The position numbers and the translations under genes are program-made. Shown in pieces: positions 1-16,633 of a stretch of 35,007 nt of DNA. The DNA comes from a virus, in the IMG/VR virus record IMGVR_UViG_3300043410_000711, positions 1-35,007 of that record, one strand, 5' to 3'. The first letter of the stretch is position 1, and every line of letters begins with the position of its first letter. Under the pieces are notes generated by a model, which had not been told where the DNA came from, did no database searches, and was given only the letters and a program-made list of their open reading frames with translations.

Positions 1-154
1 TAACATCACAAACAGGAGGTTTACAAAAATCTTTATCCCAATTTTGTGGATCTTGACAAGGGTATCGGAAACTTTCCCTACCACAAAATCCTAATGCCAG
101 CGGGAGTACCAGTAACATTGCTGCCCACTTAAATAGTTTTAAATCATTATGCAT
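1..154 (-). CDS. Small exported Cys-rich protein (3' end outside window)
   Basis: The frame opens with ATG at 154 and runs off the left edge, giving 51 visible residues. An N-terminal hydrophobic stretch (about residues 10-22, AAMLLVLPLALG) looks like a signal sequence or anchor and is followed by FCGRES. The cysteine sits where a lipobox cysteine would be, but Phe at -1 is non-canonical, so lipidation is uncertain. The mature part has the motif YPCQDPQNWD followed by CKPPVC, giving four cysteines after the hydrophobic stretch. From memory, CQDPxNWD...CxPPxC small proteins recur in cyanophage and pelagiphage genomes as hypothetical proteins. The start lies 2 nt after the stop of the preceding 49-aa gene, so translation is probably coupled. 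Function unknown. Confidence 0.7.
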   Translation of the reverse strand, partial: MHNDLKLFKWAAMLLVLPLALGFCGRESFRYPCQDPQNWDKDFCKPPVCDV

Positions 155-156
155 TA

Positions 157-306
157 TTATAAGCCCACTTTTCCTAATAGTAAATTAACGATTTTGTTTG
201 ATAAATCGTCTGGTAAAAACTTTAAAAAGCCTAAGAAATACATTGCAACCATACCATATACGCATATTTTTAAAGCTAAATCAAATGTTTTTTGGTATTC
301 GTTCAT
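157..306 (-). CDS. 49-aa single-span membrane protein
   Basis: A complete 49-codon frame starts with ATG at 306, which overlaps the stop of the upstream 165-aa gene as ATGA (4 nt), and ends with TAA at 157. The protein begins MNEYQKTFDLALK, then has one hydrophobic segment (about residues 14-31, containing VYGMVAMYFLGFLKF) and a short tail ending LLLGKVGL. The coupled start and the membrane segment support a real gene despite its size. It could be a small holin-like or accessory envelope protein, but nothing in the sequence proves that. No family recognised. Confidence 0.68.
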   Translation of the reverse strand: MNEYQKTFDLALKICVYGMVAMYFLGFLKFLPDDLSNKIVNLLLGKVGL

Positions 307-800
307 CTTCCGCACCTATGAGTAGTCTGACAAAAATCTGCCATTTCATTCACACCAACAAATAGTAAGAATAGTACAAAGAATAAAGCTCCAACTCCCA
401 TAGCAATATCATTAACAAACTGTTCTTTTTCTTTTTCTCGTTTTTCTGCGTCACGCAATTTACGCATTTCAATAGCATCATCGCGATCCATTTCTGCTTG
501 ACGAGCTTTTATTTTCTGCCAAACATCGATTTTTCCTGTTTGCATAAAAAGCATTTTAAGCTCTTCCTCAAATGCTCTAGCTTGTTCTAATGCCATTTCA
601 ATTTGAAGGGCAGTACCCATGTTTGAGCCTTTTTTGGACTTTTTTGCTTCAATTAAAGCTTTAGTAGCCACGCTTTTAGCATCAAACATTTTGCCAATCA
701 TTGGAGCAAGGGATCCTAAATCATTTGCAACTTTACTGGCTTTTTTAACCATAGAAATAGCAGACTGTATACCTGCTAGTGCTGTCATCGGATCGATCAT
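303..800 (-). CDS. Membrane-tail protein of unknown function, 165 aa
   Basis: The start is placed at 800 (MIDPMTALAGIQ) rather than the in-frame ATG at 824. A GGAGGAAG Shine-Dalgarno lies just upstream of 800, and the 800 ATG overlaps the stop of a short upstream gene. The N-terminal third (residues 1-60) is a small amphipathic region. The middle (about 60-130) is highly charged and predicted helical (KARQAEMDRDDAIEMRKLRD). The C-terminus carries one strong transmembrane span (about 136-154, GVGALFFVLFLLFVGV) and ends with two cysteines. From memory, proteins beginning MIDPxTA with a C-terminal anchor are common hypotheticals in marine T4-like and related phages near lysis genes. Role unknown. 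Confidence 0.85.
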   Translation of the reverse strand: MIDPMTALAGIQSAISMVKKASKVANDLGSLAPMIGKMFDAKSVATKALIEAKKSKKGSNMGTALQIEMALEQARAFEEELKMLFMQTGKIDVWQKIKARQAEMDRDDAIEMRKLRDAEKREKEKEQFVNDIAMGVGALFFVLFLLFVGVNEMADFCQTTHRCGR

Positions 801-925
801 CTTTTCTTCCTCCACTCCAGACAAATTACTTTTCTATTATATACATCTCCTGACCAAGTCCATCTTACACATTCGTATTCTGGTTTACTGTACCCTAACA
901 CTAATGTCAGTATTAGGGTGTACAT
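797..925 (-). CDS. 42-aa small protein, Cys/Trp-rich, overlapping both neighbours
   Basis: A short frame fills the only gap between two well-supported genes. Its ATG at 925 shares one base with the stop of the upstream 174-aa gene (TAATG), and its TGA overlaps the next start by 4 nt (ATGA at 797-800). The protein begins MYTLILTLVLGYSKPEYE, a hydrophobic leader of about ten residues, then CVRWTWSGDVYNRKVICL and a basic tail WRKKR. The two cysteines are 15 residues apart. From memory, CxxWTWxGDVxNRxVxCLxW peptides occur in other marine phages in the same neighbourhood. The double overlap plus a conserved-looking motif supports a genuine gene. Probably membrane or periplasmic; function unknown. 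Confidence 0.75.
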   Translation of the reverse strand: MYTLILTLVLGYSKPEYECVRWTWSGDVYNRKVICLEWRKKR

Positions 926-1449
926 TATTTATTAGCTAAAGGATTATCAATAGCTTTTTGTATTTTTGAGTCTACTTCTTTGCGTAGTTTTTCCAATTCG
1001 GCACGAGTACGGTCTTGATCTGCACGCATCTCTCGCTGAACAGTTTTTACATCTTGTTCAATTTCACGTTGTGATTGTTTTACACTTCGCTCAATTTGCT
1101 CAGTAACAGATTCATTCCGACGTAAGTCATTTTTTAAATCATTTTTAATGTCACGAGTATAGTCACTAGTTTTTGCCGAATTTTGCTCAATAACTGCTAA
1201 ACGCTTGTCAAACTCTGATAAGTCAGGAGCTATATAGTCAGCAATCTTTTTCTTCATGCCCATGTAGTCTTTATAGATTTCAAAAGTACCATATAAACCA
1301 CCTAAACTAGAGCTTACAATGGTAAAAGCAACCATTAGTTTAGCAGGAGTAAACTCATATCCACCAATGCTAATAACTGTATCTTTACTAGCATATTTTT
1401 TAGCTGCAGCCTCTAGCTCATCAACTTTTTTATTTAAATCTTCTGCCAT
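925..1449 (-). CDS. Membrane-anchored coiled-coil protein, 174 aa
   Basis: Starts MAEDLNKKVDELEAAAKK behind a TAGGAG Shine-Dalgarno and ends in a 1-nt TAATG overlap with the following 42-aa gene. An N-terminal short coiled coil (1-20) leads to a hydrophobic segment (about 33-57, containing AKLMVAFTIVSSSLGGLYG), then KDYMGMKKKIADYIAPDLSEF and a long charged helix with heptad character (about 75-170). The layout is that of a membrane-tethered rod. From memory, proteins with IGGxxFTPxxLxxAF and GLYGxFExYxDYM appear near lysis genes in cyanophages. They are annotated only as hypothetical. A lysis-accessory role is inference from position. Confidence 0.88.
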   Translation of the reverse strand: MAEDLNKKVDELEAAAKKYASKDTVISIGGYEFTPAKLMVAFTIVSSSLGGLYGTFEIYKDYMGMKKKIADYIAPDLSEFDKRLAVIEQNSAKTSDYTRDIKNDLKNDLRRNESVTEQIERSVKQSQREIEQDVKTVQREMRADQDRTRAELEKLRKEVDSKIQKAIDNPLANK

Positions 1450-1457
1450 ACTGACTC

Positions 1458-3194
1458 CTATTTATATTGCAGGTTTACTAAGTCTTGATGTTTCTGATCC
1501 GACCCTAAACCGCGTAAAACTCGTACATTGTCTACAACCGTCTGGTTCTTGTAAACTTCCTTTGGTTCATAAAAACTTGCGTCACGTAGTACAAAATTTG
1601 TATAACTAGCATAATTAACTGGAACTACAGCTATTTTTGTTAAATCTACTCCAGCTGCCAATTCATTTGGTTGTATCACACGGTTACGATTATCTTGACG
1701 TTGCTCTGTGAAATCAGTCATCAAAATAGGTGCTGCTTCTAAAATTTCTCGTAATGGACTTGTGCGGTCTAATAAGAAATTTGTTTGCAGTTGTGGTACT
1801 TCAGGTTCTGCTTGCTTTTGTTCTTGTGTAAGAAAAACAGGTGCAACTATTGCTGGCTGAAATGTTTCTTGTGCGATGGGTGCAAGTAACTGCAGTTGAG
1901 GTGCTTGAAATAGTGTATAATTTGCCAATACTTCTGCGGCAGGCAGAGCCTGTTGTTGAGATTGATATTGTTGAGTAGTTTGTTGTACTGTTACAGTTTG
2001 CTGCGAGTTTGCGGCTGTTGGTAGTTGTAGTCCAGTACCTGTACTCTGTGTTTGTGCAATTTTTGCAGAACTGCTAGTTTGCGAGGTTTGTGAACTTTGC
2101 TGTGCTTGACCCGCCAGTGCTACGCCAACTTCAACACTTGTAGCACTCATTGCGTTTAATGCAGTAACCGCTTGTGCAGTTTCTTGCTCCAATTTAGCAA
2201 CTGCTGATTGCGATTCTGCAAGTGCACTAGCTACTGCTTGTTGCTGTGTAGCCTTGTCACGATCAGAGTTCTTGGCAATTAAATTAAGAGCAAAACTTAA
2301 ATTAGCAGGACTACTAGAAGTTTTTTCTTGAGTAGTTGCTGAAACGCTAACTGTTGGGGTTGTATTAACCACAGAAGTAGAACTAGTTGGTTGTGTTGTT
2401 GTAATAGCAGCAACTGTTGTTGTTAATATTGGTTGTTCTACCGCAGGCTGCGATTGAACTACAACTGTTGTTTCTTGAACAGGTGCAGGAGGTAATAATT
2501 TTTGCATTGCTGCTAAGTAACCAGAACAAGTAGGTGAGTACAGTGGATTAGCTATACAAGGATCTACAGAATATTTTAAACTAAAATTAACATTCATAAC
2601 TTCAGGACCATAAGGTCCTGCCCAACCATTGTTGTCACGACCAATAAATCCATATTGTACAGTACCAATTGAACTAGCAGCTAATGGCGTTGTAAATGTT
2701 TCATTATAATTAAACGTAGTCCAGTTATACTTGTAACTTAAATTCCAACTGTTTCCATACAGCAGGTTGTTAGCACCACGACCACCAGTTGTGTCCCAAA
2801 ATCGTACTAATGCAGTTAATTGGTCTACGCGACCATCATCCCAACCATTGCCGTTTTTAGCAGTAAAACCAAAATTATATCCATTTACTTGCAAACCTGC
2901 TAGCGGAGGCAATACTGCTGATGCTTGTGGTTGCTGATATATATAACTGCTACCATAGCTAAAATTAATATTACCACCAGGACGTACAATTGGTTGTGGG
3001 CCGCAGTATCCTGGGTCTCCCCATGCCCAACAAGTTAAACTTTGTTGATATACTGCTCCAACCCACGCCGAGTTATTGGTAATATCGGGTGTAGTATATA
3101 TCTGCCCAGGTACTAAGTCTTGGGCATTAGAAGAGTTTGTGAACAAGAACACCAAGCAGAGCACCAATGCCAATTTTCTTAGTAGTATCATCAT
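1458..3194 (-). CDS. Secreted Gln/Thr/Ala-rich protein, 578 aa
   Basis: Begins with a clear Sec signal peptide: basic MMILLRK, hydrophobic core LALVLCLVFLF, and a cleavage site of type S-x-A after residue 24 (SNA|QD). The frame is closed by TAG just upstream, so no earlier start is possible. A GAGGAAG motif lies 10-16 nt before the tandem ATG. The N-terminal domain (about 25-235) is rich in aromatic residues and glycine, with paired cysteines (CWAWGDPGYCG; CIANPLYSPTC), and looks beta-rich. Residues about 236-420 are low-complexity Thr/Ser/Gln/Ala. The C-terminal domain (about 430-578) ends RGLGSDQKHQDLVNLQYK. The first 68 nt lie inside the preceding gene. Likely exported to the periplasm or envelope; function unknown. 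Confidence 0.88.
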   Translation of the reverse strand: MMILLRKLALVLCLVFLFTNSSNAQDLVPGQIYTTPDITNNSAWVGAVYQQSLTCWAWGDPGYCGPQPIVRPGGNINFSYGSSYIYQQPQASAVLPPLAGLQVNGYNFGFTAKNGNGWDDGRVDQLTALVRFWDTTGGRGANNLLYGNSWNLSYKYNWTTFNYNETFTTPLAASSIGTVQYGFIGRDNNGWAGPYGPEVMNVNFSLKYSVDPCIANPLYSPTCSGYLAAMQKLLPPAPVQETTVVVQSQPAVEQPILTTTVAAITTTQPTSSTSVVNTTPTVSVSATTQEKTSSSPANLSFALNLIAKNSDRDKATQQQAVASALAESQSAVAKLEQETAQAVTALNAMSATSVEVGVALAGQAQQSSQTSQTSSSAKIAQTQSTGTGLQLPTAANSQQTVTVQQTTQQYQSQQQALPAAEVLANYTLFQAPQLQLLAPIAQETFQPAIVAPVFLTQEQKQAEPEVPQLQTNFLLDRTSPLREILEAAPILMTDFTEQRQDNRNRVIQPNELAAGVDLTKIAVVPVNYASYTNFVLRDASFYEPKEVYKNQTVVDNVRVLRGLGSDQKHQDLVNLQYK

Positions 3195-4296
3195 ACTTGT
3201 CTACTTCCTCTAATTTAGGTAACTTGTCTGGATTTGCTTCCCATGCAGCTTTAGCTTGAGCACCTATTTGGCCCTCATAAGGGCAAGGTGTGCCAGCGGC
3301 TAACATGGCATCAAATACGCGACGATCTTGACACATTGTGGCAACTGCTGCTACCTTCATGCCCATATCAAAAAGTGTTTTTGATAGTTTTAATCGCTCA
3401 CAATTTAAATCACGAGTTGTTCCGCCACCACTTACACCAAATATTTGAGTTTGTACGCTTCCTGATGTGCCTGTTGAGCAAAGATCAGCATTTCCACCAC
3501 TCATCATTGCTGGAGCAACTGCTGTTGGAGGCGGTTGAATTACTTTTTGGGTAATAGTGGACTCATTGATATTTCTATTGGTCATTTCACCACTTTGAAT
3601 GTTTTGGTTAACATTAGTAGCAGTTGATGTATTTTGATTTACATTTGTGTTGGCAGTGGTTGCAGTTGACGTATTTTGATTAATATTAGTCATCGAACCT
3701 GATTGTACATTATTGTTAGTATTAACATTTGTAGCAGTTGAGGTTGATGTATTAATATTTCTATTAGTCATATCACCAGTATTAACATTGTTATTAGTAT
3801 TGGTGTTAGCACTAGTACTAGTACTTGAATTATTGTTGTTATAGGTCATTGTGCCACTATTAATATTGTTATTAGTGGCTGTAGTAACATTATTGTTATT
3901 ATTGGTAATTGTACCAGTATTAACATTATTGTTATTGTAAGTAACTGTACCTGAGTTAACATTATTGTTATTGTTGTTATAGGTCATTGTACCACTATTA
4001 ACATTATTGTTATTGTTAGTAACTGTACCTGACTGAACATTATTGTTTGTATTAACACTAGTAGATGTACTGGTATTAACATTATTGTTTGTATTAGTAC
4101 TAGTTGAATTAACTGAACTAGTACTAGTAGAAGTATTCGTTGAATTGGTAGTATTTGTAGTGTTTACGGTACTTGTAGAAGTACTGGTAGAGTTTGTATC
4201 TACTAACGATTTTGAATCATAGCCGCCTTGATTAATTAGGGTTTGAGCACCCACACTATTTACTATTAATAAACCTGCTAAAACCTTTTTAATCAT
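3127..4296 (-). CDS. Secreted Asn/Thr/Ser-repeat protein with conserved C-terminal domain, 389 aa
   Basis: An N-terminal Sec signal (MIKKVLAGLLIVNSVGA, V-x-A cleavage after residue 17) is followed by a low-complexity region (about 33-250) made of STST, TNTNNN and S/T-G-x-M/V-T-x-N-N-N blocks, about half Asn and Thr. The C-terminal domain (about 250-389) is compositionally normal, with four cysteines (ADLCST, LNCERLKLSK, TMCQDRR, GTPCPYEG) and a terminal glycine-zipper hydrophobic segment GIGALLGVLVHKLF. From memory, this LNCERLKLSK...MGMKVAAV...MCQD...GTPCP domain recurs in marine phages as a hypothetical protein. The start is 1 nt after the endolysin stop, with an SD (TTAGGAGCG) overlapping the endolysin end. 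The gene overlaps the next by 68 nt. It may be an envelope-crossing filament or lysis-linked protein; unproven. Confidence 0.88.
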   Translation of the reverse strand: MIKKVLAGLLIVNSVGAQTLINQGGYDSKSLVDTNSTSTSTSTVNTTNTTNSTNTSTSTSSVNSTSTNTNNNVNTSTSTSVNTNNNVQSGTVTNNNNNVNSGTMTYNNNNNNVNSGTVTYNNNNVNTGTITNNNNNVTTATNNNINSGTMTYNNNNSSTSTSANTNTNNNVNTGDMTNRNINTSTSTATNVNTNNNVQSGSMTNINQNTSTATTANTNVNQNTSTATNVNQNIQSGEMTNRNINESTITQKVIQPPPTAVAPAMMSGGNADLCSTGTSGSVQTQIFGVSGGGTTRDLNCERLKLSKTLFDMGMKVAAVATMCQDRRVFDAMLAAGTPCPYEGQIGAQAKAAWEANPDKLPKLEEVDKYDDTTKKIGIGALLGVLVHKLF

Positions 4297-4297
4297 A

Positions 4298-4912
4298 TTA
4301 CGCTCCTAATACATGCTTAGCATGTTCATAATGTTTTTTACGATCTTCTAATCCAATAGTACCACCATTGATACGTTTAGTTAGTGTAAGGATATCATCT
4401 TTATCCGCCCACTGATTTAAATTGTTCGTTTCCCAGAACCAACAAGCTGATTGAGCTGCCCCTTCAAAAGTCTCCATATATTGCGAAGCTTCTTCAGGTG
4501 AGATGTTTAAGCTAGCGGCAAACCAAAAATAATTATCTTTGCCAGTTAGTTGAATAAGACCACGACCGCAATAACGATAACCATCGCCTGTTTCAGGACC
4601 ACCATTACCCATACGGTTAGCATAAACTAAGTTGGCAATTGCTTCTGGTTTATTTGCATATTGTGCTGCCATTTCGTCTGTGGGAAAATATTTGCCAAAA
4701 ATCTTGCGTAGTGTAACTGCACGATAATTTAAATTTTCCTTGATTGCTCGAAATCCGCCTGATTCATGAGCGCATTGAGCTAAAAAAGCTGCCATACGCT
4801 GTGGTGTATTGATTTCATAGTCTGGTAATAGCTGAACAAGTGCATGATGCCAATGCTCAATATAAGGATTTTTATCAACAATTTGTTTTAACTGGTTAAG
4901 TGTTAATTCCAT
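4298..4912 (-). CDS. Endolysin, glycoside hydrolase family 19 type
   Basis: Predicted to cleave glycosidic bonds in host peptidoglycan at lysis. The 204-aa protein has the phage GH19 layout: an AHESGGF motif with Glu50, a second acidic residue Glu59 nine positions later (AIKENLNY), then VYANRMGNG, GDGYRYCGRG and LIQLTGKDNY. From memory, phage SPN1S endolysin uses Glu49, Glu58 and a threonine in the equivalent arrangement; Thr123 here is the likely counterpart. There is no signal peptide or membrane anchor, so release to the periplasm would need a holin. The gene overlaps the outer spanin gene by 1 nt (TAATG), forming a lysis cassette. The length is typical for single-domain phage GH19 enzymes. 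Confidence 0.95.
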   Translation of the reverse strand: MELTLNQLKQIVDKNPYIEHWHHALVQLLPDYEINTPQRMAAFLAQCAHESGGFRAIKENLNYRAVTLRKIFGKYFPTDEMAAQYANKPEAIANLVYANRMGNGGPETGDGYRYCGRGLIQLTGKDNYFWFAASLNISPEEASQYMETFEGAAQSACWFWETNNLNQWADKDDILTLTKRINGGTIGLEDRKKHYEHAKHVLGA

Positions 4913-5178
4913 TACTTCAATCCTTCATAGATAACTTTTTGTTCTTTGTACCATCGTTGCCAGGCTTCTAGTTTAATAGCACATATATAGTATTCAGAAT
5001 AATTAACTGTTACAATTTTTGCTACATCAGATAGTTTAGCTTCATCTTGTAACTTTTTAAGGTCTGGACAAGGCTCTTGTACTAATGTACCTGGCGCTTG
5101 CGGAAATTTTGCAGTAACTGGAACAGTTGTGGAGCACGCACTTAACATTAGTGCTAAAGAGATTACTAATGCTTTCAT
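4912..5178 (-). CDS. Outer-membrane spanin subunit (Rz1-like lipoprotein)
   Basis: This 88-aa protein starts MKALVISLALMLSACSTT, a lipoprotein signal with lipobox L-S-A-C and predicted lipidation at Cys15, so the mature protein of 74 aa should sit in the outer membrane. Two further cysteines (EPCPDL and YICAIKL) may form disulfides. It lies directly after a membrane protein with inner-spanin features, with a 4-nt ATGA overlap, and directly before the endolysin. That is the classic position for a spanin pair, which fuses inner and outer membranes after peptidoglycan is degraded. It is less proline-rich than lambda Rz1. The call rests on lipobox plus context. Confidence 0.82.
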   Translation of the reverse strand: MKALVISLALMLSACSTTVPVTAKFPQAPGTLVQEPCPDLKKLQDEAKLSDVAKIVTVNYSEYYICAIKLEAWQRWYKEQKVIYEGLK

Positions 5179-5594
5179 TTCTTTGGTGCCTCCGCGGCTT
5201 TATTATGAACTGTTACAAATTCTTTGGGAATTATGCAATTAGTATCAAACTTAATAACTTCACGATCTACATATCTGACAATGTCCTGACCACGTTCACG
5301 AACTACTTGGGTTTTTATGATTGTTTTCTGAACAATATCTGTATTAGCATTAGCACTTTTGGCTTCTGCTTCCGCTACTTTAATTTCTAACTCTTTTACA
5401 CGAGCTAACCAAGCATCGTTATTTGAAATAGCACCTATCATAAAAGCACTGAATAAAACTACTATAATACTAGCAATTTGAATTAGTTGTGCTTGAGGTA
5501 GCACTTTAACAAATTTAGTAACTAAAAACGCTATTACTCCTGCAAATAATAGCGCATAAAATATCCAGTTTGGTAAAAATTGTAATATCCACAT
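5175..5594 (-). CDS. Inner-membrane spanin subunit (Rz-like), with two membrane spans
   Basis: The 139-aa protein has two hydrophobic segments (about 8-25, PNWIFYALLFAGVIAFLV; and about 36-55, QLIQIASIIVVLFSAFMIG). A charged coiled-coil stretch follows (about 60-85, ARVKELEIKVAEAEAK), then a C-terminal region with one cysteine (FDTNCIIPKEF). A membrane anchor followed by a periplasmic coiled coil and coupling to a short lipoprotein gene is the signature of an i-spanin. Most i-spanins have one span, so the second span is unusual and could mean a different topology or a holin-like contribution. Starts by 1-nt TAATG overlap with the glycosyltransferase stop. Confidence 0.78.
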   Translation of the reverse strand: MWILQFLPNWIFYALLFAGVIAFLVTKFVKVLPQAQLIQIASIIVVLFSAFMIGAISNNDAWLARVKELEIKVAEAEAKSANANTDIVQKTIIKTQVVRERGQDIVRYVDREVIKFDTNCIIPKEFVTVHNKAAEAPKK

Positions 5595-6640
5595 TATGAC
5601 ATAAGTTTCAAGTTATTAAGCAATCTTGGATTATCGGGAGCATATCTCAATGCTTCTTTTAATAGATCAAGTGCTTCTTGTTTAAGACTTAGATTCCATG
5701 CTGCAATAGAGCATAAATCATACGGCAACTCTGTCCACACGTTTGGGTCCATAGTGTAAACCAAAGCTTTATCTTTAATTGCTAGTGCAGATTTGCATGC
5801 AGAATAACAATCTAACCACATTCCCGCTCTATAGAATATTTCTGCAAGTCCAACCCAAGGTTCACGAGTATTTGGCGCTTCTGCAACAGCCAATCGGAAC
5901 ATTTTTATAGACTGCTCCCAATTGCCTAATTCTGAGTAACATTTTCCTAATAATCTATAAGCATAGCATCGTTCATTTTGCCAAGTAGCTTCTGGCATTA
6001 ATAAATATTTGTGCAAGTATTCAATGGCTTCTTTCCATCGACTATAAAACGTAAGTTCACGAGCGTGATAAAAAGCATTGCGTGGGCAGTGTGGGTCTTC
6101 TGCAATTGCCAATTCTAGTAGTGGCATATACTGGCCACGAGACTTTGAATTGTCAGGATGGTGGCTTACTAAAAGCATATCTGTATGTGCGTATATTTCT
6201 TGAGTACGATTATCAGGTCTGGGATACTCGTGCACTGGGTGATGCCAGTGATATCCAGTACGGTGATGTATCTTTTCGTAGTAGAAACTAATACCGCTAC
6301 CCCAATCAAATTTGTAACGCAATCTGGTAGTTTCAGGCTTCCAAACTCGTTCAATCTCTTCACGCCAGCCTGGTTCTAAGACTTCGTCCAGGTCAAGTGA
6401 GATACAGACGTCAAAGTCACCTGGAATCAAGTTTAGTGCTGTGTCACGAGCTTTGTCAAACCGCCAAGGCTTTACTGCGATTGAGTAGACCTCAGCACCA
6501 TATTTTTTAGCTTCGGCTACAGTATTATCTGTAGAGCCTGTATCTGCAATTAAAATAAGATCAGCGTCTATGGCGCTTTTACAGAATCGTTCAACGAATT
6601 GTTCTTCATTTTTGCTTATAGCGTATACTGCTATTTTCAT
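5594..6640 (-). CDS. GT2-family glycosyltransferase with C-terminal TPR-like repeats
   Basis: The N-terminal half (about 1-180) is a GT-A fold glycosyltransferase: start strand KIAVYAISKNEEQFV, nucleotide-binding motif DTGSTDNT at 33-40, and a metal-binding LDLDE motif (Asp83-x-Asp85). The segment HHPVHEYP resembles the acceptor-side region of this family. The C-terminal half (about 190-348) has paired helices of TPR type, for example CYSELGNWEQSIKMFRLAVA and LSLKQEALDLLKEALRYAPD. A soluble cytoplasmic enzyme that transfers a sugar from a nucleotide donor is expected; the acceptor could be a fibre protein or host glycan. No Shine-Dalgarno is visible in the 20 nt upstream, unlike its neighbours. 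Confidence 0.9.
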   Translation of the reverse strand: MKIAVYAISKNEEQFVERFCKSAIDADLILIADTGSTDNTVAEAKKYGAEVYSIAVKPWRFDKARDTALNLIPGDFDVCISLDLDEVLEPGWREEIERVWKPETTRLRYKFDWGSGISFYYEKIHHRTGYHWHHPVHEYPRPDNRTQEIYAHTDMLLVSHHPDNSKSRGQYMPLLELAIAEDPHCPRNAFYHARELTFYSRWKEAIEYLHKYLLMPEATWQNERCYAYRLLGKCYSELGNWEQSIKMFRLAVAEAPNTREPWVGLAEIFYRAGMWLDCYSACKSALAIKDKALVYTMDPNVWTELPYDLCSIAAWNLSLKQEALDLLKEALRYAPDNPRLLNNLKLMS

Positions 6641-8893: not shown

Positions 8894-11800
8894 TTAAAAG
8901 AAAGAAGCAAAATTGCTTTGAACTGTAGCTGGTTCGCCAAAGTTCCAGCCTTTATTATTGCCTAAATTAGTAAACCCTAACTTGGCAAAAAAGGCTGCTA
9001 AGGCATTGCTATCTTGAATAGTTAGATAATTGCCTTTTGCAGTTCCTGTTGGTTTACGTAAATAAAATTGCGTTCCTGGAGAGCTACTATTTAAGGTTAC
9101 CTTACTAGAAGAATTAGCACCAGTTACACTAAATTTATCTAATGTAGTTGTGGAGCCAGCTTCAAAAGTAAGCGTTGTTGGGCTTGCAGTAATACTACTA
9201 CTTATTTGCATATCTGCAAACGTATTAGAGCCAGTAATAGTCAAAGTACTGGGTGTTTTCTGTATAATAGTACCATAAGCACCTCCACCGCCTGCAAAAG
9301 TTTTTGCAGCTGAATTTGCCATATAAATAGTATAATCAGAACCAGTAAATCCCGATCCACTAGATACTGTCCAGTTATTACTAATTGTAATAGAACCGCC
9401 ACCTGTTATAGACCTAGTCCCTGTACCAGTAGAAACAAAATTAGCAAATGTTTGTGCAGTTGAATTTAAATTTAGTGTGCCAGCGTTAACATATAGCGTA
9501 GAGTTTGCTGCATAAGTTTGCGTTGCTTCTAAAGTTAATGTAACTTCTGGTGCATTAACACCTATGCCTGCCAGTTGTTTTGAAAATTGTGGTGTCCAGG
9601 TCTGAGTACGTGTAAAAAGTGGAGTTAATCCTGTATACGTACCGCCTGTGGCTAAGGTAAGAGTGTCTACGTTAACAATGGCAGTTGGAATAGTACTTGT
9701 TGTACCTGTAAAGTTTAGGGCTTTAAACCAACTACCACTAGTAATAGTGGGTACACTTGCTCCGCTTGTTAATGCTAAATTAGGAGCACTGTTAATAGAG
9801 CCGCCTGTAGTACCAACTGTAAAAGTTCTGGTAACGGACATTGCGGAAGTAAATCCGCCTGTCCCAGTACAAGTAAAGTTAGTAGCATCTGGTATATTTA
9901 AAACTGTTGTAGCAGCTGTTGTATGAGCTAGTGCAATATTATTTGAACCAAAAGCAATTGAACGAGTATTGGTATTATTAGAATTTAATATACCAAATGT
10001 TTGATTAGTGCCTCCCAAACTTAGAGTACCTTGCATTACATAACAAGTTGAAGTAGCTGTATAAGTTTGAGTTGAATCTAAGGTTAATGTTCCAGCAGGA
10101 ATATTAACTCCTATACCATTTAATTGTTTTGCGAATTGAGCTGTCCAAGTTTGTGTTCTGGTAAAAATTGGTGTTACGCTGCTGTATGTTCCGCCGGTTG
10201 CTAGTATAAGTGTATCAACATATATTGTGGTAGTTCCAGGTGTACAAGTACTGCCGGTAAAATCTAATTTTTTAAACCAACTGTTTGCAGTAAACGTTGG
10301 GACACTTGCCCCGCTAGTTAATGCTAGATTAGGTGCATTACTTGCAGAACCGCCGGCAGTACTACCAAAATAGAATGTTCTTGTTACTGACATTCCTGTA
10401 GTAAACCCACCAATACCTGTATAAGTAAAACCAGTTGCATCCGGTACATTTATAACTGTTGATCCTGCAGTAGTTGTTGCTAATACTATACTTCCAGTAC
10501 CAAAACTAATGCTACGTGTGTTTGTATTATTTGAAGTAAATGTGCCTGTTGTTAGTGTATAACCAGCCAAATCCAATGTACCAGTAGTTAATGTTGTTGT
10601 TCCAGTAGCTACTAAAGATAATGCTCCTGCCAACGTAGTAGTGGGAGTAGCACTGATTGTGACGTTAATGGTTAACGCTGCGATAGTTTTACCATTAGGG
10701 GTAATAGTACCCTGTCTAAACATAGTTGCTGATAATCCAGTAAATGTACCTCCAGTTGACAATGTTAAACTGTTTAGATTTAATGCAGTTGTACCTGGGT
10801 TGAATGCAGTAGTACCAAAATCTAATGTTTTGAACCAACTACTAGTGGTTAATGTTTGTATTGCGGTGCCAGAACCAGTAAATGTTAAGTTTGGCTCCCA
10901 ACCACCGGCTGTAGTTGAACCAAACTGATATGTTCTGGCTACATCCGCAGCCGCAGTAAAACCACCGGTTCCCGTCCACGTAAATCCAGTAGTGATTGCC
11001 ATAGCTAATACGGTTGTGGCTGCTGTAGTATGTATTAATACAATATTATTTGTACCGAAACTGATTGATCGCGTGTTGGCGTTACTTGAGCTGAATATTC
11101 CAGTTGTTAATGTATATCCACCTAAATCTAATGTTCCTGCAGTTAGTGTATATGTACCGGTGGCCGTTAGTGCATACGATTTACCCAATGTCACAGTGCC
11201 TGAGGTATGTGTAAATGTAGGTACTGCACTCAATGTACCTCCATTATAGTTAAACCCACCTGTTACTACAAAACTAGTACTTGGAGTAATAGTTCCTTGT
11301 GTAAGCGTAAAAGTTCCAGCACAGGTCCAGGTAGTGCAAGTAATAGTACCAATATTATTTAGTGTACCTGCAGTATATGTAGCAGTTCCACTACAAGTTA
11401 AATTAAACGTAGCAAAATTAATTGTACCGGCTGTTTGTGTATAAGTAGTACAACTTAAAGCAGCTGCTAGTGTTGTAGTTCCTGTGCTATTAATAGTAAA
11501 CGCTGCGATTGTTTTACCATTTGGTGTAATTGTGCCTGTTCCAGAACCAGTAACTGCTAAACCAGTATAAGAGCCATTAGGAGATAAAGTTAAAGTATTA
11601 ACGTTTACTCCACCAGTACCTGTAGCGCTACCATCTGTACCAAAATTTAATATATTAAACCAACTGCCAGCAGTAAATGTAAGAGTATAACCACCTGCAA
11701 AAGTACCACTTGCTAATGTTAAATTTGGAGCATTAGTTGATGTGCCACCTGTGGTACCGTACACAAAGGTTCTATTGTTTAGTGCGTCTGAATAGAAATT

Positions 11801-14800
11801 TTGTGTACCAGTATAAGAATAGCCAGTAATTATTGCCATATTTAGCACAGTTGTGCCAGTGGTACCGTGACTTAATGTTATGCCACCAGTACCCCATGCA
11901 ATAGACCTAGTATTAGTATTTGAAGAACTAAATGCTCCAACAGACAGCATATACCCATTTAGGTTTATCGTACCACCATTAAAGTTATATGTTGTTCCTG
12001 ATAAACCACTGGTACTAGAACCTAATGTTACTGTACCATTTGTATGCGTAAATGTGGTGGTATTAACAAAATACCCCCCATTAAGGTTTAATGTGCCTGT
12101 AGTTAAAGTAGCACTGTTACAAGTAATTGAACTACCGTTAGCTGTAACTGTAGCGCCATTAATTGTAAATGTAGTAGAACTTAATGTAGAATATGAAGAT
12201 GAGTCATAAAACCCTAACGTACCACCATTAATTGTAGCGGCGCCAGTGCAAGTAATTCCATAAAGAAGTGAATTACCGGCAGTTTGCGTATACGTAGTAC
12301 AAGTAAATCCTCCTAAAAGTATATTACTAGATGAAGTAGTATTCAATGTAACCGCAGCGACGGTTAGAGTAGTGTTTAAACCATTCCAGCTAATTCCTCC
12401 ACTGCCTACCAAGTTAATAGACATATTAGCTAGGGGTGTTCCGGTATTATTTTGACCAATAGATAGACTACCTAAATTTAATGTCGTGGTAGGAACAGTT
12501 GCCGCACCAGCAATTGAAAGATTATTAAACCAACTACCTGAGGTATATGTAATAGTACTAGTATTGGTGCCGGTAATAGTAACATTTGGTGCATTAGTGC
12601 TACTACCGCCTGTAGTACCAAATGTAAATGTTCTTGTAACCGGTGCCTCTGTTGTAAATCCACCGGTACCAGTCCAGGTAAACCCAGTGGCATTTGCCAT
12701 TGATAGTACAGTTTGTGCAGCTGTGGCAGTATTTAAAACAATACTGGCACTACCAAAAGCTATCGCTCGTGTATTGGTATTACTAGAACTAAAAATATTA
12801 TTTGTTGTTAGATTAAAATTATTTAATGCTAGTGTACCTGTAGTAAGAGTTATAGCTCCATTACTGATTAATGCACTAGCTAATGTTGTAGTTCCACCAG
12901 GACAGTTAATGGTTAATGCAGCTAAGTTTCCTTGGCTGGCAGATGTGTTTGCATTACTAATAGTACCTGTGCCAACCATTGTTGCAGTTAATGCAGTAAA
13001 TGTGCCGGTGCTATTTAAAGCTAAACTATTTAAGTTTAAGTTAGTACTAGGAACCGCAAATTGTGTAGTACCAAAATCAAGTTTATTAAACCAACTACCA
13101 CTTGAAAGTGTTTGTGCGGCAGTGTCAGATCCAATAAAAGTTAAATTGGGTGCATTAATAGAAGTACCACCTGTAGTACCAAAAGTAAAAGTTCTTGTGA
13201 TATCTGCAGCTGCTCTAAATCCACCTGTACCAGTCCAGGTAAAGTTAGTGGTATTAGCCATAGACAGATTGGTTGCGCCCACTGTAGTAGTTGCTAATAT
13301 AATATTATTACTGCCAAATGCGATTGAGCGAGTTGTGGAAAAAGATGAAACAAATGTGCCAATAGTTAAATCAAATCCACCCAAATTTAAGGTGCCTTCG
13401 GTTAAAGTAAATATTGAGGTTGCTGTATATGTTTGTGTGCCGTCTAGTGTTAGTGTTACTCCGGAGCCATTAACACCTATACCACCCAATTGCTTTGAAA
13501 ATTGTGGCGTCCAGGTTTGTGTGCGAGTAAAGCTTGGGCGTAATCCAGTAAATGTTCCTCCACTGGATAATGTCAGTGTACTAACGTTTAATACTGTTGA
13601 TCCTACGTCAAATGCTGTAGTGCCAAAATCAAGTGTATTAAACCAACTACTAGTGGTTAATGTTTGTATTGCGGTGCCAGAACCAGTAAAGGTTAAACTA
13701 AGAGCATTTGCAGATGTACCACCTTGTGTGCTACCAAAAGTAAATACTCTGGCTGGTGTTGCCGGTGCTCTTAGGCCGCCTGTTCCTGTACGAGTAAACC
13801 CAAGTGCTTGTGGAAAGTTTAATGCATTACTTCCTGCAATAGCACTTTGTAATGTAATATTATTAGATCCAAAAGCTATAGCGCGATCAGTAGTACCTGA
13901 TGATTGAAGCGAACTGGCAGTAATATCGTAGCCGTTTAAGTCTAATGTTCCTGTTATTAACAAAAGAGTGCTGCCCACGTTCAAAGCGGAAGACAGCGAA
14001 CAAGTATTTCCTACACCAACATCAATAGTTACACCACCAATAAGTGCACCGTTACCAGTAATACTGCCTGTACCTACCATTGTAGCAGTATATCCTGTAT
14101 ATGTACAGCCACTAGATAAAACTATAGTGTTAACATATGACCCGACTAGTCCGACACTAAAAGCAGTTGTGCCAAAATCTAATTTATTAAACCAACTATT
14201 GTTGGTTAATGTCTGTACAGCTGTTCCAGATCCAGTAAAAGTTAAATTGGGTGCATTAGTAGAAGTACCGCCAGCGGTGCTACCAAAACTAAAAGTTCTT
14301 GTGATATTTGCAGCTGCTCGAAATCCGCCTGTACCAGTACAAGTAAACCCAGTGGCATTTGCTATTGACAAATTAGTTCTACCAGCCGTCAGGTTGTTTA
14401 AAATAATATTATTGGATCCAAATGCCACCGCCCGAGTGTTAGAATTACTTGAATTAAATGTTTCAATTGTTAGATCGTAACCGCCTAGATTTAAAGTACC
14501 CGCAGTTAAGAAAAAATCAGATCCGGCGACATAGGTTTGTGTGCCATCTAAAGTTAGGGTTATACCTGCATAACCAACGCCTAAACCACGGAATTGTTTG
14601 CTGTATTGTGCTGTCCAAGTTTGTGTACGAGTGAACATTGGCACCAAGTTGGTATATGTACCAGTACTGGATAACACTAATGTGCTTACATAAAATCCAT
14701 CTACTGCAGTACTCATAGTAGGAGTATTTGTACTGTTTGTAAAATCCAGTGTGTTAAACCAAGAACCAGGTTCTATGTTTAAAGTGGCAGTTTCAGTACT

Positions 14801-16633
14801 ACTGATAAAAGATACATTTGGTGCATTGGATAGGGTGGCTCCGCTACTGGTACCAATATTAAGAGTTCTAACTCCGCCACCTGACATGGCTAAAACAAAT
14901 TTACCTGTACCAGTCCAAGTAAAATTGGTGATATTCGCCATATCCAGCATGTTAGCTGAATATGTTCCAGAACTTTGTACAATAATATTACTAGAGCCAA
15001 ATATTATCGAACGAACTTGACTGGTAGTGGAACTAAATTGAGCAGTGGTTAAAGTGAACCCATTTAAGTCGAGCGTACCATTAGTTAGTGTGGTAGTAGC
15101 AGCACTAACACCAGAAACAGTAAGATCGTCTAACAGTGTTATTACATCTGTATTGGCAGCATTAATAGTAAGTCCTCTGATACTTTTTCCTCTGCTTAGA
15201 ATAGTACCTGCTGAGTTCATTATAGGCAGTAAACCAGTATAAGTACCAGAACTACTTAAAATTATATTTTTAACGTAAATACTAGTTGTTCCTGGATCAA
15301 ATGCAGTAGTACCAAAATCTACTGTGCGAAAATAGCTAGTATCTGTAATAGTTTGTACTGCGGAACCAGTTCCAGTAAAAGTTAAATTAGGTGCATTGTC
15401 TACACTTGGCCAAGTTGCGGTAGCAAATGAAAAGGTTCTGGTTATATCGGCTGTTGCGGTAAATCCACCAGTACCAGTACAAGTAAAGTTAGCGGCACTT
15501 CCCATTGATAAGTTAGTTTGGCCAGCTGTGGTAGTAGCCAACTTAATATTATTTGAGCCAAAAGTTATTGAACGAGCAGCACTACTGGGTGCAGTAAAAA
15601 CACCTGTTGTTAAATCGAATCCATTTAAATTTAATGTACCGCTTGTAAAAGTAAATGTGCCTGTGGGTGTTAAAGAAAATGCACCTGTTAAAGTAGTAGT
15701 ATTAGCAACACTATTGATTGTTATTGCAGGAAGGGTAGTATTACCTCTGCCATTAAGAATACCTGTACCTGTTATTGTAGGTGTTAAATTGGTAAACGTA
15801 CCACCAGCAGAAAGTGCCAAGCCTCGTAGCGTTAAACTAGTTGTGCCTGGATTAAATGCTGTTGTGCCAAAATCAAGGTTACCAAAAGTACCAGAAAGAG
15901 TTTGCGCAGCAGTTCCAGTTCCAGTAAATGTTAAGTTAGGTGCACCTGCAACCAAAGTACTACATGCAAAAGTTCCTGATAGATTTGCTGGGGCAGTAAA
16001 TCCGCCAGTACCCGTACAAGAAAATGTTGTACCAGTTGTTACATTTAATGAACCACCACTAGTACCATTTGTATTATTGGCTATTACAATATTGCTTGAG
16101 CCAAAAGCTATACTGCGTGTATTTGCAGTAGTAGAGTCAAAAAAAGTAGTTGTTAGTGTAAATCCATTTAGATCAAGTGTGCCAGAGTTTAAGTTAAAAC
16201 TTCGATTTGAGCCTATGGTTAAGGCACTACCTAGTGCAAGTGTTCCAGCGTTACCATTAGTTACATTTGCGTTTAAAACTGTTCCATTTGTAGTAATTGT
16301 TTTTATAGTAGCCGCAGTTGGATTAAAAGTAATACTATTTATAGCTGTCCAAACAGTTCCAGCTATTAGGGACATATTACCCGCTATAGTAAAACTAGGA
16401 CTACTGCCACCGGTATCAAATGTTACTGTACCAGCAGATACTGTAATATCTAAACAGTTTAGTCCAACAGTGCCGCCTAGCGAAACAGTATAAGTACCGG
16501 GTTGGTCAAAAAATACTGAATCAGCTGCAGTAGGTACGCTGGCTCCGCCAGCTCCGCCCGAAGTTGCACTCCAATATGCAGTAGAAGTTGAATTCCATTG
16601 ATTTGTTCCACCAACCCAATATCTATTTGCCAT
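8894..16633 (-). CDS. Giant repetitive fibre/adhesin-like protein, 2579 aa
   Basis: One uninterrupted frame of 7.7 kb. The N-terminus RYWVGGTNQWNSTSTAYW...GASVPTAADSVFFDQPG is a motif seen, from memory, at the start of phage surface proteins. The body is about eleven diverged copies of a module of roughly 150-250 aa with ordered signatures: GTLDLNGYTLTTGxFSSSNTNTRSIAFGSNNI, TGFTWTGTGGF, TRTFTFGTTGG, NAPNLTFTGSGTA, then WF(N/K)xLDFGTT. Composition is Thr/Ser/Gly/Asn with few charges, which fits a stacked parallel beta structure. The C-terminal cap (about 2430-2579) has YLTIQDSNALAAFF and GNNKGWNFGEP. There is no signal peptide, so it is probably a virion fibre or spike. One of the longest reading frames one would expect in such a phage. 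Confidence 0.87.
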   Translation of the reverse strand: MANRYWVGGTNQWNSTSTAYWSATSGGAGGASVPTAADSVFFDQPGTYTVSLGGTVGLNCLDITVSAGTVTFDTGGSSPSFTIAGNMSLIAGTVWTAINSITFNPTAATIKTITTNGTVLNANVTNGNAGTLALGSALTIGSNRSFNLNSGTLDLNGFTLTTTFFDSTTANTRSIAFGSSNIVIANNTNGTSGGSLNVTTGTTFSCTGTGGFTAPANLSGTFACSTLVAGAPNLTFTGTGTAAQTLSGTFGNLDFGTTAFNPGTTSLTLRGLALSAGGTFTNLTPTITGTGILNGRGNTTLPAITINSVANTTTLTGAFSLTPTGTFTFTSGTLNLNGFDLTTGVFTAPSSAARSITFGSNNIKLATTTAGQTNLSMGSAANFTCTGTGGFTATADITRTFSFATATWPSVDNAPNLTFTGTGSAVQTITDTSYFRTVDFGTTAFDPGTTSIYVKNIILSSSGTYTGLLPIMNSAGTILSRGKSIRGLTINAANTDVITLLDDLTVSGVSAATTTLTNGTLDLNGFTLTTAQFSSTTSQVRSIIFGSSNIIVQSSGTYSANMLDMANITNFTWTGTGKFVLAMSGGGVRTLNIGTSSGATLSNAPNVSFISSTETATLNIEPGSWFNTLDFTNSTNTPTMSTAVDGFYVSTLVLSSTGTYTNLVPMFTRTQTWTAQYSKQFRGLGVGYAGITLTLDGTQTYVAGSDFFLTAGTLNLGGYDLTIETFNSSNSNTRAVAFGSNNIILNNLTAGRTNLSIANATGFTCTGTGGFRAAANITRTFSFGSTAGGTSTNAPNLTFTGSGTAVQTLTNNSWFNKLDFGTTAFSVGLVGSYVNTIVLSSGCTYTGYTATMVGTGSITGNGALIGGVTIDVGVGNTCSLSSALNVGSTLLLITGTLDLNGYDITASSLQSSGTTDRAIAFGSNNITLQSAIAGSNALNFPQALGFTRTGTGGLRAPATPARVFTFGSTQGGTSANALSLTFTGSGTAIQTLTTSSWFNTLDFGTTAFDVGSTVLNVSTLTLSSGGTFTGLRPSFTRTQTWTPQFSKQLGGIGVNGSGVTLTLDGTQTYTATSIFTLTEGTLNLGGFDLTIGTFVSSFSTTRSIAFGSNNIILATTTVGATNLSMANTTNFTWTGTGGFRAAADITRTFTFGTTGGTSINAPNLTFIGSDTAAQTLSSGSWFNKLDFGTTQFAVPSTNLNLNSLALNSTGTFTALTATMVGTGTISNANTSASQGNLAALTINCPGGTTTLASALISNGAITLTTGTLALNNFNLTTNNIFSSSNTNTRAIAFGSASIVLNTATAAQTVLSMANATGFTWTGTGGFTTEAPVTRTFTFGTTGGSSTNAPNVTITGTNTSTITYTSGSWFNNLSIAGAATVPTTTLNLGSLSIGQNNTGTPLANMSINLVGSGGISWNGLNTTLTVAAVTLNTTSSSNILLGGFTCTTYTQTAGNSLLYGITCTGAATINGGTLGFYDSSSYSTLSSTTFTINGATVTANGSSITCNSATLTTGTLNLNGGYFVNTTTFTHTNGTVTLGSSTSGLSGTTYNFNGGTINLNGYMLSVGAFSSSNTNTRSIAWGTGGITLSHGTTGTTVLNMAIITGYSYTGTQNFYSDALNNRTFVYGTTGGTSTNAPNLTLASGTFAGGYTLTFTAGSWFNILNFGTDGSATGTGGVNVNTLTLSPNGSYTGLAVTGSGTGTITPNGKTIAAFTINSTGTTTLAAALSCTTYTQTAGTINFATFNLTCSGTATYTAGTLNNIGTITCTTWTCAGTFTLTQGTITPSTSFVVTGGFNYNGGTLSAVPTFTHTSGTVTLGKSYALTATGTYTLTAGTLDLGGYTLTTGIFSSSNANTRSISFGTNNIVLIHTTAATTVLAMAITTGFTWTGTGGFTAAADVARTYQFGSTTAGGWEPNLTFTGSGTAIQTLTTSSWFKTLDFGTTAFNPGTTALNLNSLTLSTGGTFTGLSATMFRQGTITPNGKTIAALTINVTISATPTTTLAGALSLVATGTTTLTTGTLDLAGYTLTTGTFTSNNTNTRSISFGTGSIVLATTTAGSTVINVPDATGFTYTGIGGFTTGMSVTRTFYFGSTAGGSASNAPNLALTSGASVPTFTANSWFKKLDFTGSTCTPGTTTIYVDTLILATGGTYSSVTPIFTRTQTWTAQFAKQLNGIGVNIPAGTLTLDSTQTYTATSTCYVMQGTLSLGGTNQTFGILNSNNTNTRSIAFGSNNIALAHTTAATTVLNIPDATNFTCTGTGGFTSAMSVTRTFTVGTTGGSINSAPNLALTSGASVPTITSGSWFKALNFTGTTSTIPTAIVNVDTLTLATGGTYTGLTPLFTRTQTWTPQFSKQLAGIGVNAPEVTLTLEATQTYAANSTLYVNAGTLNLNSTAQTFANFVSTGTGTRSITGGGSITISNNWTVSSGSGFTGSDYTIYMANSAAKTFAGGGGAYGTIIQKTPSTLTITGSNTFADMQISSSITASPTTLTFEAGSTTTLDKFSVTGANSSSKVTLNSSSPGTQFYLRKPTGTAKGNYLTIQDSNALAAFFAKLGFTNLGNNKGWNFGEPATVQSNFASFF
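10833..10882 (-). repeat. 50-bp exact repeat inside the 2579-aa gene, copy 1
   Basis: Fifty bases are identical to 13641-13690, although the sequence just outside differs. Encodes the TFTGSGTAIQTLTTSSWF segment of one protein module. Exact nucleotide identity in an otherwise diverged module suggests recent gene conversion. Confidence 0.93.
13641..13690 (-). repeat. 50-bp exact repeat inside the 2579-aa gene, copy 2
   Basis: Identical to 10833-10882 and 2.8 kb away, in the same reading frame, at the matching place in another module of the giant repeat protein. Confidence 0.93.

Follow-up and report, generated by a model that had tools for sequence, protein, structure and literature searches.

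A co-inherited three-gene module of predicted envelope proteins in phages of aquatic bacteria, with a possible late role at the host envelope

Two-component spanins such as lambda Rz/Rz1 pair an inner-membrane subunit of i-spanin layout with a lipobox-bearing partner (PMC6139136). In addition, curli/type VIII secretion clusters are known to occur in pelagiphages (PMC7029224, PMC9599517, PMC9004378). The locus described here bears some likeness to both. As in lambda Rz/Rz1, its core consists of predicted envelope proteins encoded by overlapping genes, and one of them (g5 below) combines a predicted TM segment with a periplasmic coiled coil. However, this core comprises three proteins, a jelly-roll protein being the extra one, its g6 and g7 proteins are essentially never lipoproteins, and the operon studied holds a canonical Rz/Rz1 pair besides the triad. 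Like phage curli, the triad is a multi-gene exported set found across phage families of streamlined marine bacteria, whereas neither CsgG, in 33 triad-bearing records, nor a curlin-repeat match was found for it, and it has a predicted inner-membrane coiled-coil subunit instead.

The DNA analysed, hereafter the window, is a 35-kb virus fragment (IMGVR_UViG_3300043410_000711, positions 1-35,007) that encodes a lambda J-type tail protein. On its minus strand, seven coupled ORFs, named g7, g6, g5, g4, g3, g2 and g1, run from 4296 to 1 and follow Rz, Rz1 and the endolysin, in that order:

5175..5594, minus strand: Rz-like i-spanin with two hydrophobic segments (context gene)
4912..5178, minus strand: Rz1-like o-spanin with lipobox LSAC (context gene)
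4298..4912, minus strand: endolysin (phrog_181, 3.4e-74; context gene)
3127..4296, minus strand: g7, exported protein of 389 aa
3127..3194, minus strand: g7/g6 dual-coding overlap, 68 nt, in which the g7 C-terminal tail and the g6 signal peptide are read in two frames
1458..3194, minus strand: g6, exported protein of 578 aa
925..1449, minus strand: g5, predicted inner-membrane protein of 174 aa
797..925, minus strand: g4, 42-aa peptide
303..800, minus strand: g3, 165 aa counted from the ATG at 800, phrog_32327 family
157..306, minus strand: g2, single-TM protein of 49 aa counted from its ATG
2..154, minus strand: g1, 5' part of a ~94-aa protein cut by the contig end

A sequence-only reading had described seven tightly coupled genes at positions 1-4296, and every junction it gave was confirmed from the ORFs and the sequence, namely the 68-nt overlap of g7 and g6, an 8-nt gap between g6 and g5, TAATG at g5/g4, ATGA at both g4/g3 and g3/g2, and a 2-nt gap between g2 and g1. 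For g3, the ATG at 800 suffices and the listed TTG start is unnecessary; the full length of g1 is 94 aa in two relatives (L023 and L009). The dN/dS values against relatives were 0.02-0.37 for all seven genes, where computable, indicating purifying selection and hence that g1-g7 are real genes. Coupled co-directional genes by themselves are commonplace in phages; what goes beyond chance is the conservation of the gene set, not the coupling itself. Elsewhere in the window, a glycosyltransferase gene (5594-6640; phrog_13126, 4.6e-100) lies between the tail genes and the lysis cassette, and a 2579-aa repeat protein with LNLNGFTLTTG-type repeats (8894-16633) is accompanied by long antisense ORFs. 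In the relatives L005 and L023, two small two-TM proteins (possible holins) and then a PhoH-like gene are found 3' of g1, and the gene 5' of Rz reads like a heme oxygenase.

Conservation of the set was examined in two surveys. Among 80 viral loci selected on g6 alone, g7 was upstream in 78 and g5 downstream in 75, in the same order and on the same strand, as counted over loci many of which are related and are not independent events. In the same loci, g4 was present in 51, g3 in 53, g2 in 35 and g1 in 13; these genes come and go, and some lie upstream of g7 or are inverted. The survey seeded on the g7 domain alone gave at least 594 viral relatives. For 90 loci in which g7 was complete and a further 4 kb of downstream sequence was available, drawn from both surveys and from isolates, an ORF ending in NPL, as g5 does, was found in all 90 and a g6-type C-terminus in 82; the baseline for NPL endings was 148 of 3892 plus-strand ORFs overall, g5 genes counted in. 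Furthermore, an iterated profile of the g6 C-terminal region matched 156 of the 179 ORFs that immediately follow g7 but just 3 of 1059 other ORFs, the three being in loci (L003, L021 and L170) where no g6 had previously been paired with g7, two of them (L003 and L021) fetched by g6 itself. Of 136 non-redundant loci, 109 have the g6 start, as placed by its signal-like stretch, at a point over 20 nt into g7, mostly with an overlap of 65-74 nt, and one relative frame was used in 106 of these 109, so that the same DNA encodes the tail of g7 and the signal peptide of g6.

It is close to certain that g7-g6-g5 exists as a co-inherited module. The earlier proposal that all seven genes form one system is partly supported: for this triad, the co-occurrence in distant phages that it had named as a test holds, and relatives in similar order were found in marine phages, as it had stated. 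As a single unit of seven genes it was rejected, given that g4-g3-g2 and g1 drop out, shift and invert, and the g3 family occurs in phages with no detected g7. A description of the triad was not found in the open-access literature, and no function is assigned to it in Pfam or PHROGs. Note that in L138, L143, L145, L146, L148, L158, L169 and other loci, a short g6 (~280-318 aa) precedes a further three small exported proteins, none of which belongs to a known family; tracing this three-gene insertion variant into Vibrio and Stenotrophomonas phages gave no result.

The same three-gene order was found in the Pelagibacter phages HTVC115P, HTVC023P, HTVC033P, HTVC202P, Baldr and Mosig (Kyanoviridae), as well as in the T7-like Autographiviridae record AP013540. 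The g7 match was significant in all seven of these records and g6 was confirmed by profile in five, while g5 was clear only in HTVC115P, the other assignments being made by order, length and NPL tail. Both g7 and a protein with an NPL end are also present in the Roseobacter phages CRP-207 and CRP-810; in these phages, gp73 of CRP-207 (L091:3292-3873) and gp51 of CRP-810 (L088:7213-7635) are annotated as lysozyme, yet they have the NPL end and look g5-like. Many metagenomic loci are flanked by T4-like replication genes (DNA polymerase checked, others read by eye), and triad-type contigs reach 352 kb among the matches listed. In three loci (L098, L099 and L105), g7 and its neighbours lie on contigs of 300-352 kb, i.e., in very large phages. 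A bacterial origin was rejected, since the 23 loci in GTDB genomes, mostly titled metagenome-assembled contigs of mixed taxa, look like misbinned phage.

The envelope targeting proposed for these proteins is supported by their sequences. Specifically, g7 and g6 have cleavable Sec-type N-termini with AxA-type motifs, and hydropathy peaks are present in g5, g3, g2 and g1. Invariant or nearly invariant cysteines number four in mature g7, four in mature g6 and two in g4; the same holds for the C-terminal cysteine pair in g3 and for three of the g1 cysteines, and g5 has none. This pattern fits a location of g7, g6 and g4 outside the cytoplasm, with g5 probably anchored in the inner membrane. The predicted g5 protein has one TM segment at ~36-57, a long coiled-coil-like periplasmic part and the conserved C-terminal NPL tail. 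The g7 protein consists of its signal peptide, Asn/Ser/Thr-rich repeats (~20-255), a conserved four-cysteine domain with a TPCP motif (~256-360) and a short hydrophobic C-terminal tail (~371-389), and it matches phrog_20531, a family of unknown function, at 2e-12. Its AF2 model is poor (mean pLDDT 44), with residues 321-360 helical at 78-85, and when PDB sequences were searched using the g7 domain, a single match was obtained (E 1.1), which was taken as chance.

In g6, the signal peptide inside the g7 overlap is followed by a jelly roll (~30-215), a mostly disordered tether (246-513) that includes a helix at 299-352, and a conserved C-terminal region (~500-578). Residues ~30-215 were modelled as a confident beta-sandwich (AF2 pLDDT mostly 75-98), for which the best folds were the Fbs1 glycan-binding domain (Z 12.7), CBM16 (Z ~10) and CBM61 (Z ~9). 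Jelly rolls are a common fold. The g6 region ~30-210 shares this fold with the Fbs1-type (FBA) and CBM16/CBM61/CBM4_9 jelly rolls, but its identity to them is only ~13-15%, a long tether and a putative docking region are fused to it, and its ligand and binding residues are putative. Weak CBM_4_9 matches were obtained for two isolate g6 proteins. In addition, a short g6 motif, WAG-YGP-V-N, is similar to the equivalent loop in Fbs2/FBXO44, a weak match (E 0.67-1.4) that is suggestive only. In human Fbs1, Lys280 is a loop residue contacting the glycan (PMC5457524); as read by eye, the g6 residue at this position differs and Lys280 is not evidently present. A tblastn search of full-length g6 against isolated phages gave no match, and comparison of single-sequence profiles failed to connect the isolate g6 proteins before iteration, so that the isolated-phage relatives of g6 were reached solely through g7 and the C-terminal profile. 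In a BFVD search, the best matches were uncharacterised phage proteins.

As to timing, the T4-type late-promoter octamer NATAAAT[AGT] preceded g7 in 65 of 136 loci, compared with 6% of random stretches. In the first survey, NATAAATA stood upstream of g7 in 21 of 45 loci, whereas it preceded DNA polymerase in 1 of 13 cases and UvsX, helicase and PhoH in none. In these loci, g7 has the TATAAATA-like late promoter expected of T4-type late genes, the consensus being that of PMC1524935. These motifs argue for a late role, probably mainly in the T4-like members. In the window lineage, g7 has no such motif and directly follows the endolysin.

The sequence-only reading had also placed the set after the lysis cassette, but as a general rule this linkage was not borne out. 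Three cell-wall enzyme families were located in 22 long records, each of which contained one or more of them. Within 7.5 kb of the triad, GH19 endolysins were not enriched (3 of 12, 1.6 expected, P 0.2), and SleB enzymes (1 of 12) were not closer to it than expected. For S11 D-Ala-D-Ala peptidase genes, 7 of 8 long records had one within this distance, where 1.4 were expected (P 1e-4), but these are related phages and not 8 independent events; in G004, G005, G006, G008, G015, G021 and G029, these genes are 2-7 kb from the triad. A general linkage to lysis cassettes was therefore dropped, and the adjacency of triad and endolysin in the window is a trait of the window lineage.

The genes g4-g3-g2 form a second, separate module, usually beside lysis genes. 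The g4 peptide has a hydrophobic start and two invariant cysteines (C-x-RW-x-W-x-GDVY...C-x-x-W), and g3 is helical, with a C-terminal TM segment followed by two conserved cysteines. It belongs to phrog_32327 (match 1e-10; e.g., HMO-2011 gp60), a family without known function, and relatives were found in MW202879, HMO-2011, MW202710, CRP-171 and MW202701. The g7 profile had no match in these five phages, a negative that says little by itself because the search carried no positive control; in a separate search, the same profile matched 32 of 32 records. In four of the five phages without a g7 match, g3 is near annotated holin, lysozyme or M15 peptidase genes, while in CRP-171 it sits between the tail genes and the DNA maturase, and in MW202710 a small g2-like protein follows it (by eye). 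The g1 protein is cysteine-rich and anchored (RYPCQDPxNWDxxxC...), with a lipobox in some relatives.

Our preferred explanation, held tentatively and a little short of an even chance, is that the triad encodes a glycan-binding complex which is anchored in the inner membrane, acts late and conditions the envelope ahead of release. In such a complex, g5 would be seated in the inner membrane with its coiled coil reaching into the periplasm, and g7 would be exported by Sec, disulfide-bonded and held at the membrane through its hydrophobic tail. The exported g6 would carry its glycan-binding-type jelly roll on a flexible tether of ~250 residues, its conserved C-terminal region docking on g7, on g5 or on both. 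At a late stage of infection, it would bind a glycan of the envelope, either peptidoglycan or LPS, and condition the envelope for release. The explanation draws directly on co-inheritance, gene order and overlap, the late-type promoter motif, export signals, invariant cysteines and the jelly-roll prediction, and from these we infer the three-protein complex, its disulfides, its ligand and its effect on release. We counted in its favour the relatives found with g7 as seed, the co-occurrence of NPL-ending ORFs and g6, the gene order shared by the Pelagibacter phages and AP013540, the late promoters, the Fbs1/CBM16 folds and the proximity of S11 genes. Counted against it were the lack of GH19 enrichment, the Rz/Rz1 and endolysin that the window phage already has, the commonness of jelly rolls, the difference at the Fbs1 Lys280 position, the relatedness of the S11 records, and the length of g5 (~74 to 217 aa among relatives), owing to which a span of the whole periplasm would not be constant.

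Superinfection exclusion or receptor masking, in which the exported jelly-roll protein would cover a surface glycan so that neither other phages nor the progeny of the same phage could adsorb to the cell under infection or to debris from it, appears unlikely. An exported, lectin-like protein and exported cysteine-rich proteins at the envelope would suit it. So would the make-up of g6, for of 102 triads that were not in the seed set, 55 matched the profile of the window-type head, and together with the conserved C-terminal region this makes the head appear swappable. However, classical exclusion normally acts early, to which late-type promoter motifs are a poor fit, and the anchors are predicted to sit in the inner membrane.

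We regard as similarly unlikely that the triad is an outer-membrane-disrupting lysis device, i.e., a three-part alternative to spanins. The layout of g5, with its N-terminal TM segment, coiled coil and conserved tail, is that of an i-spanin as judged from sequence, and in the window lineage the triad is directly behind the endolysin and Rz/Rz1. On the other hand, a lipobox-like motif was found in 0 of 52 g7 and 1 of 55 g6 sequences, whereas an o-spanin requires a lipobox; moreover, the window phage encodes Rz/Rz1, and the triad has no general linkage to endolysins.

It is improbable that the triad proteins are virion-associated host-binding proteins, as late-type promoter motifs and the jelly-roll domains also found in phage tail proteins might suggest, because tailed virions assemble in the cytoplasm, which g7 and g6 would leave by way of their Sec signal peptides, and the triad is common to phages of different families. 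A curli-like filament or aggregation system, with g7 repeats forming an extracellular fibre, is very improbable and was rejected: although g7 has low-complexity Asn-rich repeats with some low-confidence strands in its AF2 model and pelagiphages are known to carry curli clusters, CsgG was found in none of 33 triad-bearing records (some of them fragments; the control matched in 4 genomes), no curlin repeat was matched in g7 by Pfam (E up to 1), and in some isolates, for example HTVC115P, the repeat region is no more than a short linker.

Beyond the preferred explanation of a late, envelope-conditioning complex, it is conceivable, although we hold this with more reserve, that the triad is an unrecognised modular late envelope machine common to T4-like, T7-like, long-tailed and very large aquatic phages. 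In such a machine, a conserved tether and membrane base would carry a glycan-binding head that can be swapped, and the whole would act as something other than a spanin, a holin, curli or a classical exclusion protein. The conserved order, the dual-coded junction and the late-type promoters make the triad a defined, testable object rather than a list of hypothetical genes. Present on hundreds of viral contigs and in cultured SAR11 and Roseobacter phages, the triad is likely to be important to the way in which infections by phages of the most abundant aquatic bacteria come to an end.
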